From Candidatus Poseidoniales archaeon (GTDB taxonomy: Archaea > Thermoplasmatota > Poseidoniia > Poseidoniales > Thalassarchaeaceae), in NCBI GenBank assembly GCA_012964335.1, contig DTUF01000043.1:1-64000 (forward strand): a stretch of DNA of 64,000 nucleotides, given 5' to 3'. This document shows, piece after piece, positions 38,584 through 45,921 of this stretch; within the stretch, counting starts at the first letter, position 1, and each line of letters begins with the position of its first letter. The position numbers were made by a program, and so were the translations under genes. The notes under the pieces are model-generated. The model was not told the DNA's origin, did no database searches, and saw only the letters and a program-made list of their open reading frames with translations.

Positions 38584-41229
38584 ATGGTCAAGAGTGGAAA
38601 TCCTGTGACTTTTTCACGAATCCGAGGTAGTTACAGACGGAGGTTATTGGACCATCTTTCTGATGGCCCCTCAACTGTCACCGGTTCAAGTAAAGCAGTC
38701 GCGTTACGATTACCCCATGCTTCTGCAGAATTGAAGAGAATGAGGGCAGAGGGCCTTATTCAGTCAGATTCTGGGCCAGGACAAAGAGGTGCGAAACAGC
38801 ATCTCACTGCGGCTGGCTGGCAGGTTTTTCTTGGTGATGAATTGGCTAGATTGGCTGAAAGCAGTATTGATTCAATTCCCGAACATGCGATTGGAAAATT
38901 ACTTGCCAAAGATGGCCCTCAACTTCTACTTGCTTACACAAAACCTCTCACTAGCCCCCTCATTCCATTACCGTGGAGTGGAGATTTCAGTCATTCAGAA
39001 CAAACTGTAATCTCTAGTGGAATTAAGGGGGTGAAGGCAGAATATGTTTGGGCAGTTGCGCGCGAGGCAGAAGTAAGATGGTACGACTTAGAATCTCTTG
39101 AGCAGGTTCCTGCACCTTCTGATGACCAATCAACAACATCATTGTCTGATTGGGTAGAACCTGCACCTGTAATAGGATTAGTACGTGCTAGATTACTAGA
39201 CCCACGCCAATCGCTGAAGTTAGCAATTGGAAGTTGGTTTGGTGAACCAGGGATAGAGGGCTGGCCAGACCTCCCAATGCCGATGGGTGAATCAGAATCT
39301 TGGACCCTTGGAACAGCCCATGAATCAATTTCCCCACTTCAGTCCCAATGTCCCATTTGTGCGATATTACCTGATAGGCTTTCAACAACGACTCTCCTTT
39401 CAGCTGCCTCAAATGGTGCCCTTGTAATTGCAGAAGCATCACTTTTAGGACGTCAAGGGGATGCCGTACCACTTTCAATTCTTGATTCATGGATTAATCG
39501 CGCCCACCCACGCCTTACAGAAACAGAACGCCGACACCGATTACAAGGATTGATTCAAGCAATTCGCAAAGGTCGCCGCAAACGAAGTGGTAACATTCGA
39601 GTTGAAGAATCAACTTGGAGACGTTTTCAATCAGATTGGTCGAAACATCAATGGAGTGAAAAAAGTGAGGTAGAGAATATTATCATTGATGTTCAAGGGC
39701 TATCATCAACGGCTTGGCTTTCTCTGATAGATTGGTCTTTAGCACGCCAAGAAACAACTCCTGTAGTTTTACAATACCCTCCTGGCCACCATGATCCAGG
39801 GCAACTACATTCAGTTTTCCAAGACTCGAGAACTAGACTCGCAATTCTCTCTCAAGAACCTGAAGAGCCACTCGCCTACCCCACCCTTAGGCCAGATCCA
39901 ATTCGCCCACTATCTTGGTACCTCTTGAAATTGGCTGGAGATGTTGAGTTACCGTGCAAGGTAACCCATCGCCCACCACCTAGTTTCACATCTCCGCCAC
40001 CACTTTGGGTGCCACCAAATTCTGCTTCAACTCTAGAGGAGGTCGTTGCTGCGGCGCGACTCGCAGCAGGTGATTCGGCACCTCCTGATGCATCTGAAGA
40101 TTCATCCGAAGAGATGAGATTGTTTGCCGCATCACTTCGATATCCAGAAGGCGATGCTGATTGGGCTGATAGAATTGAATCAGTTGACCCATTAGCGGCA
40201 TGGATAGCTTGTCCAGATGATAATCGCTGGCCGCTGTGGCGTCGTCAAGGTAATCGGTTGGGCGCTGATTGGATTTCGCTTCTACCTGTAGAACAAGTGC
40301 CGATAGAATTTCTAGCGGAAGTTGCAGGAACTGCCCCGAATGATTGGCAGGAATTAGCTCACAATCATCTTGTACAACGAATCCGAGATGAGGATGACTT
40401 AGCGTTGAGATTGAGAACTCTAATTGATTCACATCATTTCAATGATGTTGCATCGTCATGGCTAACCTCCACGCTACTTTCTCAGGTTGCATGGCTACCA
40501 CCTGAACTTGCTTCTGATTTGGCTCGTTGGGCTCCAAATAGTATTTCTAAATCATTACCATCAAATATAATTCCAGCTTTAACCGGATTGACTTGGCTAT
40601 CTTCTCAAGGAGAATTAGATGATAACTGGGTAAGGGACATTGAGGCGTCTCAAAGGTCATCACCCATAATTAATGGCTGGATATCACTGCTCTCAACAGT
40701 GAGAGATGATAGAACCCCATCGGTTGAAGAAATTAGAGAAATCACATCTCTACCCATTGAATGGTGGGCCCCTTTTTCACCACTATTGTTCAATACCATT
40801 ACTGAAGGAGTAGACGGGCGAGAGATGCTTTTGGGAGAGAGTATTCCATGGGCGTCGGCCCTATTTCGTCAGATTGGTGAGATACATACAATCCCAGGGA
40901 TAGGGGAGAGAGAACACCCCGGTTGTCCTACTGACCTTGTCTCTCGTTTGGAGAGGATTCTGCAGGGTGTTGAAATTGATGTGGAGTTGCAAGGCTTTGC
41001 TGAGTTGACAGATGTACTGAATACGTTGAAGTCAATTCTTGTCGGCACTAAACCAGTTGTAGGACAAATCCATCCGATGATTGGATGGTTGTTGCAACCT
41101 CGTGAGAGATGGCCAGCCTTCAGTGCAACTGAAATTGTCAACGGTGACCCCGAAGTGGCAGCTCGATTAGCCGCTGGTATAAGTGGATACCATGATGGCC
41201 TTAGAGAGTCTACTCAGCGGCGATTATGA
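38584..41229 (+). CDS. 881-aa protein with N-terminal winged helix; rest unassigned
   Basis: N-term FSRIRGSYRRRLLDHLSDGPSTVTGSSKAVALRLPHASAELKRMRAEGLIQSD is wHTH-like; no P-loop or nuclease motif recognised downstream. Confidence 0.75.
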   Translation: MVKSGNPVTFSRIRGSYRRRLLDHLSDGPSTVTGSSKAVALRLPHASAELKRMRAEGLIQSDSGPGQRGAKQHLTAAGWQVFLGDELARLAESSIDSIPEHAIGKLLAKDGPQLLLAYTKPLTSPLIPLPWSGDFSHSEQTVISSGIKGVKAEYVWAVAREAEVRWYDLESLEQVPAPSDDQSTTSLSDWVEPAPVIGLVRARLLDPRQSLKLAIGSWFGEPGIEGWPDLPMPMGESESWTLGTAHESISPLQSQCPICAILPDRLSTTTLLSAASNGALVIAEASLLGRQGDAVPLSILDSWINRAHPRLTETERRHRLQGLIQAIRKGRRKRSGNIRVEESTWRRFQSDWSKHQWSEKSEVENIIIDVQGLSSTAWLSLIDWSLARQETTPVVLQYPPGHHDPGQLHSVFQDSRTRLAILSQEPEEPLAYPTLRPDPIRPLSWYLLKLAGDVELPCKVTHRPPPSFTSPPPLWVPPNSASTLEEVVAAARLAAGDSAPPDASEDSSEEMRLFAASLRYPEGDADWADRIESVDPLAAWIACPDDNRWPLWRRQGNRLGADWISLLPVEQVPIEFLAEVAGTAPNDWQELAHNHLVQRIRDEDDLALRLRTLIDSHHFNDVASSWLTSTLLSQVAWLPPELASDLARWAPNSISKSLPSNIIPALTGLTWLSSQGELDDNWVRDIEASQRSSPIINGWISLLSTVRDDRTPSVEEIREITSLPIEWWAPFSPLLFNTITEGVDGREMLLGESIPWASALFRQIGEIHTIPGIGEREHPGCPTDLVSRLERILQGVEIDVELQGFAELTDVLNTLKSILVGTKPVVGQIHPMIGWLLQPRERWPAFSATEIVNGDPEVAARLAAGISGYHDGLRESTQRRL

Positions 41230-41240
41230 ACCATATTCAC

Positions 41241-41249
41241 CTATAAGAG
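41241..41249 (+). promoter_or_regulatory. TATA-like element of the structured RNA
   Basis: CTATAAGAG ~25-30 nt upstream of the predicted RNA 5' end, just after the preceding CDS stop. Confidence 0.5.
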
Positions 41250-41269
41250 GATTCAAAAGGGGTGGTTTT

Positions 41270-41563
41270 ACCCAAAAGTTTGCCCCGGCTGCAACACCAC
41301 ACGGACCTTGGCCTTCGCCGGCGAGGGATGAACTGTGGTACCAAGTGCGGGGTATCGCCGCCTTCGAAGGCCGTGGTGACCCTTCGGGGAATGAACCTCG
41401 GTGCAAAATGGCGGCAGGGCGAGAAGGTCTCCATACGACTGCTGTGCGCGGAATGACTATCGGAACCACCCACTCGTCCGACAGACGCCCCGGGGTGGGT
41501 CAGAACCTCCGAGCCAAAAGCGATGAGGCGGTTCGTTACTCCTCGGGGCACACTTTTGTTTTT
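41270..41563 (+). ncRNA. Multi-hairpin kink-turn RNA, candidate four-hairpin H/ACA-type guide RNA
   Basis: Hand fold: four K-turn hairpins with AUGA signatures at 41328, 41391, 41453 and 41523; ACA boxes at 41481-41483 and 41550-41552 directly after lower stems; upstream TATA-like box; U-rich 3' end CTTTTGTTTTT. Confidence 0.8.
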
Positions 41564-41610
41564 CCATCCATCCGTAGGATTGATTGAGGTTCAACCTCTC
41601 AGATGTTTTA

Positions 41611-42627
41611 ATGGGCCGGCACTCACTGTGTTTACTAGGTGGTACATTTGACCGCCTTCATGCTGGGCATCATCATCTGATTTCTACTTGTTTGGAGCAA
41701 TCTGATGAGGTTCAGATATGGTTGACAAGCGATACTATGGCTCAATCAAAAACTCCCATCGTTTTGGATTGGGAAACCCGAAAACAAGAAATTTTGGTTT
41801 GGGCTGATTCTGAAGATGCTTGTGACCGGTTATCTATTCATCTTTTAGAGAACGAAGTTGGGCCTGCCCCAACTAGTTTAGAGGCAGATTCGATTGGATG
41901 CACCCCTGAAACTAGGTCTGCATGTGAAGATATCAATAGTTCAAGAAAAATAGAAGCCTTGCCTCCATTGAGTATTATTATGGCAGAACATGTTCTAGGG
42001 ACTGCTGGTGAAATCATTTCTTCAAGTAGAATAAGAGATGGTGAAATTGACCGTCAAGGTCAGCCTTGGCTAGGAGAGGCTGAAATGTATCTTGATCAGC
42101 GAATGCCAGAAATTCTAGATGACGAACTAAAGCAACCTTTTGGAACCCTTCATGAAGGACCCGAGTCAAGGCCAGAAATAGCGATGGGTAGAGCCCTAGC
42201 CTCGATTTCAGAGTCATCACCAAAACTGATTGCAGTCGGAGATGTTACAGTCCAAACATTAGTTGACATGGGTGAAATTCCCGACATTTCTTTTATCGAC
42301 GGAATGACGAAGCGTGAGGTTTGGGCTGAAGCGGAAAACCTTGATAGAGAATTATTTCCCCATCTATCAACCTGCACTAATCCCCCGGGACTTATCACTG
42401 CGGACTTGAAACTAGCTACAAAGGTAGCACTCTTGAATAGCCGGCCTACTCTTATTGTGGTTAAAGGAGAAGAGGATTTAGCACCCATCATTATCCACTT
42501 ACTCGCACCAATAGGTTGTGCTGTACTTTATGGTCAACCAGGGAAGGGGGTTGTTGTTAGGATTACCAGCCAAGAAACAAAAGAAAATTGCCGTAGACTT
42601 CTTGATGTATTCACTAAGGAGCTGTGA
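41611..42627 (+). CDS. Fusion of phosphopantetheine adenylyltransferase (CoaD-like) and DUF359 GTP-dependent dephospho-CoA kinase
   Basis: N-term LLGGTFDRLHAGHHHLI and IISSSRIRDGEIDRQG (nucleotidyltransferase); C-term LIAVGDVTVQTLVDMGEIPDISFIDGMTKRE...NPPGLITADLKLA...LIVVKGEEDLAPIIIHLLAPIGCAVLYGQPGKGVVVRIT (DUF359). ATG 41611 preferred over TTG 41584. Confidence 0.9.
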   Translation: MGRHSLCLLGGTFDRLHAGHHHLISTCLEQSDEVQIWLTSDTMAQSKTPIVLDWETRKQEILVWADSEDACDRLSIHLLENEVGPAPTSLEADSIGCTPETRSACEDINSSRKIEALPPLSIIMAEHVLGTAGEIISSSRIRDGEIDRQGQPWLGEAEMYLDQRMPEILDDELKQPFGTLHEGPESRPEIAMGRALASISESSPKLIAVGDVTVQTLVDMGEIPDISFIDGMTKREVWAEAENLDRELFPHLSTCTNPPGLITADLKLATKVALLNSRPTLIVVKGEEDLAPIIIHLLAPIGCAVLYGQPGKGVVVRITSQETKENCRRLLDVFTKEL

Positions 42628-44245: not shown

Positions 44246-45484
44246 TCAAAGCCTTGCTTGGAGGCGGTATGTGCTGTTTACCACTGGTTTCATCGCATCA
44301 TCAGCCTCAACCATGATGGTTACAGCGTTGATGTTTTGAGGTATGCAAGAATTGATGCGATTGCTCCTGCCATAACGTCCTAGGCTAGTTGTTTTGGCAG
44401 TAATTAATCCAAGGCTGTCAAGATTCTTGATTACATTTCCAATAGAGCGTGAAACTAACGGTGTGACCGAAGCGTTGTTACAAGTCATTTGGTAAACGGA
44501 GAATACTTCTCCAGTAGAGACATTCGTTAAACCATTACTCTCGTTGAGTAAGATACTGTAAAGCACCAGTTTTTGGTGGAATGGTAGACTAGAAATTACT
44601 GGTGTCATTTGGTCAAATTGTAATTGATTCTGGGCTAAACGAACGTGTTCAGTCGAAACATGGTCATCTTCCATGACATCTGCTTTGTGAATAGAAACTC
44701 GCAGTAAATCCAAAGCGCGCCTCGCGTCTCCATGTTCTTGAGCGGCTAAGGCGGAGCAGAGTTTGATGACTCCATTCTCAAGAACTCCTTCGCGGACGCC
44801 CGCGAGCGCGCGTTGGGACAGGATGTCTGCAATTTGGCTAGCATCATACGGCGGGAATGCCAAGTCTTCAGAGCCAAGTCGTGAGGCAATTCTCGCGTCT
44901 AGCATCTCTGTGAATTGCAGGTCGTTTGTAATTCCAATTACACAACACTTAGAATTTCTCAATTCATAATTGAGGCTGGTAAGTGGGTAAAGAATGTCGT
45001 CACCATGCCGTTTTACTAAGTGGTCGATTTCGTCTAATACGAAGATATGAACTCCGCCTTTCGATTCCATATTTTGACGAAGCTGTTCAAGGACCTTGTC
45101 GGTTGGCCACCCAGTGAAAGGTACAAGATCTTCATTGTCAGTTGCTAAATCATTTGCCAACTTAGCTAGTACACGATACTTGGTATCAATTGTGCAACAG
45201 TTGACCTCAACTGCGTGAATTGTGCGCCCTATTGCTTTTCCACGATCCAACAATTGTTTACAGACATAACGAGTTACAGCAGTTTTTCCTAATCCTGGTT
45301 GTCCATACAATATCATATTGGATGGTATCTGTCCATGTAATGCCTCAACTAAATTATGAACTAAAGATTTGACCTCATTTTCCCTGTGTGGTAGGTTATC
45401 AGGTGTGAATCCGTGATGAAGCACGTCGCGGTTTTTAAATAGGCTATCATTACTTAGCAAGTGGTTGAAAATATTTTCGCCCAT
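44246..45484 (-). CDS. Orc1/Cdc6 replication initiator
   Basis: MILYGQPGLGKTAVTRYVCKQLL, HIFVLDEIDHLVKRHGDDILYPLT, ITNDLQFTEMLDARIASRL, C-terminal WH. Start at ATG 45484. Confidence 0.93.
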   Translation of the reverse strand: MGENIFNHLLSNDSLFKNRDVLHHGFTPDNLPHRENEVKSLVHNLVEALHGQIPSNMILYGQPGLGKTAVTRYVCKQLLDRGKAIGRTIHAVEVNCCTIDTKYRVLAKLANDLATDNEDLVPFTGWPTDKVLEQLRQNMESKGGVHIFVLDEIDHLVKRHGDDILYPLTSLNYELRNSKCCVIGITNDLQFTEMLDARIASRLGSEDLAFPPYDASQIADILSQRALAGVREGVLENGVIKLCSALAAQEHGDARRALDLLRVSIHKADVMEDDHVSTEHVRLAQNQLQFDQMTPVISSLPFHQKLVLYSILLNESNGLTNVSTGEVFSVYQMTCNNASVTPLVSRSIGNVIKNLDSLGLITAKTTSLGRYGRSNRINSCIPQNINAVTIMVEADDAMKPVVNSTYRLQARL

Positions 45485-45921
45485 TTTATAACACCAACGC
45501 CATTTCGCTTCATTCCCTCCGTGTTTGTCTTGTGAGCGGTGGTCCCAACTGTTACGGAGATTCATGAGGAGGTGTGTCGGTCTAATAAGGCTAATTGCTG
45601 AATCACAATCTTAGACCTATTTTTTCGCGCAAGTCAAATAGAATTATAGTATATTAACTCCCAATTGGAATGAGCGGAAAAATAACTATTTCAAAGCCTC
45701 CGTATTGTGTTTTTGATATTTTGGCGCCAGCAATGGCGGTCAAGCCCTTCTCAGAATAGGCAAAGAGAATGTCTCAGAATAAGGAATCAAAAGAAGTGAA
45801 TTTTTCAAGCGATTTTTTGTAACATTTTTTAGCCGAGGAAGTGTGTTTATCAAAATCCACATTCAGATAATTATTACAATCAATCTAAATCGCCTTCCAG
45901 CAATTATTATACTCACATCCT

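Follow-up and report, generated by a model that had tools for sequence, protein, structure and literature searches.

The RNA at 41281–41555 (+ strand) of the window, by which we mean the whole 64,000-nt stretch of DNA analysed, is very probably an archaeal H/ACA guide some 270 nt long, derived from the HgcG/Pab40 family and built of four hairpins. It enlarges a known type of guide RNA, whose archaeal members so far described have three hairpins at most. Four tandem K-turn hairpins (HP1–HP4) lie between the gene for an 881-aa protein and a coaD-DUF359 fusion gene, and each runs from a lower stem through a two-armed internal pocket to an upper stem closed by tandem G-A pairs, beyond which come a 3-nt bulge and the apical stem. 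A sequence-only reading had described four hairpins with GA opposite GA and a 3-nt bulge and had called the RNA H/ACA-type. All four hairpins are present, with the following features:

38584–41229, + strand: 881-aa protein with no Pfam match, directly upstream of the RNA
41252–41258, + strand: promoter-like element TTCAAAA (TT[CG][AT] class), ~28 nt upstream of HP1
41281–41555, + strand: four-hairpin H/ACA RNA, extent inferred from homology limits and ACA position
41282–41353, + strand: HP1, K-turn hairpin, putative order-specific 5' addition; lower stem 41283–41287/41348–41352; pocket arms GCAAC 41291–41295 and ACC(A) 41340–41343; upper stem 41296–41303/41332–41339; K-turn GA 41304–41305, bulge GAT 41327–41329, GA 41330–41331
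41357–41415, + strand: HP2, K-turn hairpin, homologous by alignment to the first hairpin of HgcG/Pab40; lower stem 41357–41362/41410–41415; pocket arms CGAAG 41365–41369 and GCAA 41403–41406; K-turn GA 41378–41379, bulge AAT 41390–41392, GA 41393–41394
41417–41483, + strand: HP3, K-turn hairpin; lower stem 41417–41423/41473–41479; pocket arms AAGGT 41424–41428 and ACCACC 41465–41470; K-turn GA 41437–41438, bulge AAT 41452–41454, GA 41455–41456; ACA box 41481–41483
41487–41552, + strand: HP4, K-turn hairpin; lower stem 41487–41495/41541–41549; pocket arms GGGTCA 41497–41502 and GTTAC 41535–41539; K-turn GA 41511–41512, bulge GAT 41522–41524, GA 41525–41526; ACA box 41550–41552
41584–42627, + strand: coaD-like nucleotidyltransferase fused to DUF359, downstream of the RNA
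44246–45565, − strand: Orc1/Cdc6-type replication initiator (Cdc6_lid, Cdc6_C)

Folded one by one, the hairpins adopt the expected lower stem, pocket and upper stem (z = −1.5, −2.5, −1.7 and −3.4 for HP1–HP4), which bears out the earlier description of a pocket and a lower stem beneath each K-turn stem. The unconstrained minimum-energy fold of 294 nt does not recover all four together, and its z of −1.46 is unremarkable. Hence the case for four hairpins rests on comparison, not on energy.

A BLAST search of 195 genomes of the order Poseidoniales gave matches in 101. All four K-turn hairpins, with GA opposite GA, are kept in 112 of 117 distinct sequences, and the distance from GA to pocket is nearly constant. 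Of the other five, four differ at the HP4 K-turn by one G-to-A substitution and one is N-masked. A covariance model of HP1 and HP2 built from 20 diverse members detected the tandem at full length in 80 of the 82 Poseidoniales genomes sampled, from both families of the order. It found no full-length match outside Poseidoniales in the phylum sample, where matches elsewhere were weak and shrunken, and none of any kind in six genomes of the sister group within the same class. Genomes with the HP4 pattern, where named, are titled Poseidoniales, Thalassarchaeaceae, Marine Group II, or an unspecific 'Euryarchaeota' or similar name for a metagenome-assembled genome.

The stems covary in these related genomes; their failure to do so was one of two findings that the earlier reading had said would count against it. 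For HP1 and HP2 the stem covariation score is 0.524, against 0.180 ± 0.018 when shuffled and 0.06–0.10 when slid, and both sides have changed in 20 of 25 pairs of the alignment. Covariation is also seen in the upper stem of HP4. The upper stem of HP3 taken alone, in fixed register, shows no significant covariation; the lower stems, that of HP3 included, pair better within than between genomes. On these comparative grounds, the 112 of 117 sequences with four GA/GA hairpins and HP1–HP2 covariation above shuffled values, conservation of the four-hairpin form is well beyond chance.

The most conserved parts of the RNA are the pocket arms (GCAAC/ACCA, CGAAG/GCAA, GGT(C)/AC(A,T,C)ACC and GGGTCA/GTTAC for HP1–HP4). 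In productive archaeal H/ACA guides the stem from the pocket to the second G-A pair has 10 layers (PMC4652768), and the GA stem here has that length: the G-A pairs follow 8 nt after the pocket on both strands in 115, 113 and 97 of 116 homologues for HP1, HP2 and HP3, respectively. In HP4 the spacing is mostly 7/8, with one bulged nucleotide.

At this locus every Rfam family stays below its cut-off. The best sub-threshold match is HgcG (Pab40, RF00064), which covers HP2–HP4 with 31.5 bits (E = 4e-7); its gathering cut-off of 77 bits is not reached by the window RNA. A match to RNase P or SRP RNA, the other finding named beforehand as contrary, did not appear over these bases up to E = 10. At gathering score all Rfam families, RNase P and SRP among them, were rejected as identities, and no tRNA or tmRNA was found. 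Three open reading frames overlap the locus (41183–41587 on the + strand and two on the − strand); these were rejected as coding because homologues, which measure about 255–278 nt from GCAACA onwards, have indels whose lengths are not divisible by three, and because the stems covary.

Across the phylum search, HgcG matches occur in 50 of 296 genomes, and one relative scores 92.7 bits, above the gathering score. In those members that could be read, the three-hairpin relatives across Thermoplasmatota contain HP2, HP3 and HP4 in that order, with arms CGAAG/GCAA, (A)TGGGT/(N)CAACC and GGGTCA/GTTA. By alignment, then, HP2–HP4 are homologous to three-hairpin HgcG/Pab40, a relationship that the earlier reading had missed. 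The likeness to HgcG/Pab40/Pf7 of Pyrococcus extends to the K-turns and the tandem layout: HP2 aligns to a hairpin of the model and HP4 to its last, and HP4 keeps the helix 69 guide (P. abyssi L2016, Pab40.3; Pf7 stem III). Unlike the Pyrococcus RNA, the window RNA has the extra 5' hairpin HP1, lacks an ACA after HP2 and has a divergent HP3.

HP1 has no detected counterpart in the other Thermoplasmatota three-hairpin relatives, which instead have AT-rich, promoter-like sequence directly 5' of HP2, and no match to HP1 was detected outside the order, nor did the other Thermoplasmatota yield an HP1-like guide standing by itself. Most simply, Poseidoniales started from an inherited HgcG of three hairpins, HP1 was gained in their ancestor as an order-specific 5' addition, and the ACA after HP2 was lost in that lineage. 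In the samples searched, the four-hairpin variant of HgcG/Pab40 is restricted to Poseidoniales. The count of four that the earlier reading had set against one to three in archaea is real: reviews describe archaeal H/ACA RNAs with one, rarely two or three, hairpins (PMC7991803, PMC3608112), and within the limited literature searched we found no earlier report of four. The fourth hairpin extends the reported range, in an RNA that is kept throughout an abundant order of uncultured marine archaea.

A second sub-threshold match is to the trypanosomatid snoRNA TB11Cs5H3 (RF01544), which aligns to HP2 at 41356–41419 (+ strand) with 25 bits against a gathering score of 50. TB11Cs5H3 is a single-hairpin eukaryotic snoRNA, and the match arises from guide arms (UUCGAAGG...CGGU.CAAAA) near-identical to those of HP2. 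This cross-domain likeness probably reflects a common, conserved target in LSU rRNA.

We scored the arms of all homologues against every U of the genome's own 23S rRNA (L051) and of a congener's 16S rRNA (L061). In all four hairpins the pocket arms are complementary to rRNA around a U-N dinucleotide, ambiguously for HP3 and modestly for HP1, and the best match of each pocket falls on a uridine of the 23S core. At pocket register the best sites are U2611, U2501, U2560 and U1928 for HP1–HP4, which align to E. coli 23S positions 2606, 2496, 2555 and 1915; position-shuffled arms reached the observed scores in 2, 0, 0 and 1 of 400 trials. All four sites are unchanged in the LSU sequences read from the order and nearly invariant in those read across the phylum. 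These outstanding matches and the ACA boxes of HP3 and HP4, together with the HgcG match, the covarying stems and the 10-layer GA stem, support the H/ACA-type assignment.

The predictions differ in strength. As a pairing, the assignment of HP4 to E. coli 1915 in helix 69 is near certain. That of HP2 to 2496 is strong. In Pyrococcus, Pab40.3 guides the helix 69 site L2016 and Pab40.1 guides L2588 (PMC4652768), and we infer that L2588 is the HP2 site. For HP1, 2606 is plausible, with a predicted duplex of 8 bp in all, of which the 3' arm contributes 3 bp. If yeast m5C2870 is, as we take it to be, E. coli 2501, then yeast positions 2975, 2865 and 2923 correspond to E. coli 2606, 2496 and 2554; yeast 2258 corresponds to 1915. 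All four of these yeast residues are pseudouridines, guided by snR42 (2975), snR46 (2865), snR10 (2923) and snR191 (2258), and m5C2870 is common to yeast and E. coli (PMC8307265). Three predicted sites thus coincide with yeast pseudouridines, those of HP1, HP2 and HP4, and the HP3 site is one base off. The likeness is claimed for targets alone; the yeast guides are separate snoRNAs without K-turns. One LSU sequence in the phylum (L279; G214, family f20; Thermoplasmatota), read with a simple pattern, showed a T-rich stretch in place of the motif normally seen near E. coli 2496, which could be an insertion, divergence or an assembly artefact.

The target of HP3 is ambiguous between E. coli 2555, in the A-loop, and 2586. 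The arms found in the window's genus, AAGGT/ACCACC, have two mismatches to the A-loop and look partly decayed in the window species. Moreover, a change in the A-loop was predicted for genera with TTAGGT/ACTACC arms, and their 23S A-loop is unchanged; the failure of this predicted guide-target covariation makes the HP3 target uncertain. That HP3 instead guides 2586 (own U2591) is a tentative alternative, to which we give clearly less than even weight. The arms GGTC and (N)ACCC fit GACC and GGGU(U) around U2591, and GGTC is present in every HP3 variant. Pointing the same way is pseudouridine 2621 of Haloferax, presumably the equivalent of E. coli 2586. Its proposed guide is a Haloferax hairpin described as homologous to Pf7 stem II (PMC2584109). 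Pairing at U2591 works only if 2 nt are skipped at the top of the pocket, however, and scores 20.8 with that skip, compared with 26.2 for the A-loop at ungapped register; the GGGC arms of some distant relatives also suit the A-loop G better. HP3 arms are altered (TTAGGT or AAGGT with ACTACC or ACCACC) in L024–L028, L031–L038 and the window's genus, and the A-loop is constant there. It is possible that the guide target of HP3 was lost or changed in several genera.

The ACA boxes divide the hairpins into two pairs. An ACA lies 13–16 nt from the pocket in 116 of 116 homologues for HP3 and in 113 of 113 for HP4 (15–16 nt in the window RNA). At the required distance after HP1 and HP2 it occurs in none of 116, and the looser ANA in 3 and 0 of 116, respectively. 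The 3' ACA that the sequence-only reading expected of an H/ACA RNA is thus found for HP3 and HP4 and missing for HP1 and HP2, which to that extent depart from a canonical H/ACA unit, the box being one of its defining features.

This could mean that HP3 and HP4 are the only working guides, HP1 and HP2 being L7Ae-binding elements for structure or assembly, or remnants. The absence of the box in 116 homologues fits such a division of labour, all the more as all 18 three-hairpin relatives readable with a strict pattern place an ACA exactly 14 nt downstream of the HP2 pocket, and as the predicted HP1 duplex is weak on its 3' arm. We nevertheless consider it doubtful. The pocket arms of HP1 and HP2 hardly vary although the stems do, which argues for a kept target, and the HP2 match at 2496 is among the strongest. 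H/ACA-like guides with a degenerate or missing ANA box are, furthermore, known from Pyrobaculum (PMC4652768), and by that analogy HP1 and HP2 may still be functional.

Whether the RNA carries four working pseudouridylation units in a single particle, two of them without an ACA and the fourth fused to HgcG in the Poseidoniales ancestor, we regard as evenly balanced. Genes for Cbf5, Nop10 and an L7Ae-type protein are present in this genome and four relatives, the L7Ae-type match lying below the family cut-off (E = 5e-31). In the guide reading that we favour, one RNA would be transcribed from the TTCAAAA element, L7Ae would bind the K-turn of each hairpin and Cbf5-Nop10-Gar1 would contact the stems of that hairpin. 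Both arms of the pocket would pair with rRNA flanking a U-N dinucleotide, so that Cbf5 could take the U into its active site and convert it to pseudouridine; the 23S positions modified would be E. coli 1915, 2496, 2555 or 2586, and 2606. If all four units work, one particle that binds up to four sets of H/ACA proteins sets the pseudouridines of helix 69 and those near the peptidyl transferase centre. Four specific pseudouridines of the ribosome core are predicted, three at yeast positions, and can be checked on environmental rRNA. The family also amounts to a natural test of whether a guide with several hairpins can do without the ACA box.

The upstream region has its own conserved feature. 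TT[CG][AT] occurs at −28 ± 1 in 96% of 79 non-redundant upstream regions against a background of 8%, often as TTCATGA, TTGAAAA or TTCAAAA, and is a candidate order-specific promoter element that replaces the classical TATA box. The TATA-like CTATAAG that had been cited for an independent transcript is unconserved, TATAA being found in 4% of the same 79 regions, and the U-rich 3' end cited with it is a weak feature of the family (32% T in the 20 nt after the ACA).

Downstream, a coaD start motif follows the RNA at 44–140 nt in 77 of 79 non-redundant loci, so the two may share a transcript; that the RNA is a cis-acting leader of the coaD-DUF359 mRNA regulated by L7Ae on the K-turns is nonetheless very improbable, as it leaves four rRNA-matching pockets, the ACA boxes and the homology to HgcG unexplained, and as guide function is compatible with a shared coaD transcript. 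The downstream gene itself seems to join the final two steps of CoA biosynthesis in one protein, DUF359 being the archaeal GTP-dependent dephospho-CoA kinase. Further along, a replication origin might lie near the Orc1/Cdc6-type gene at 44246–45565 (− strand).
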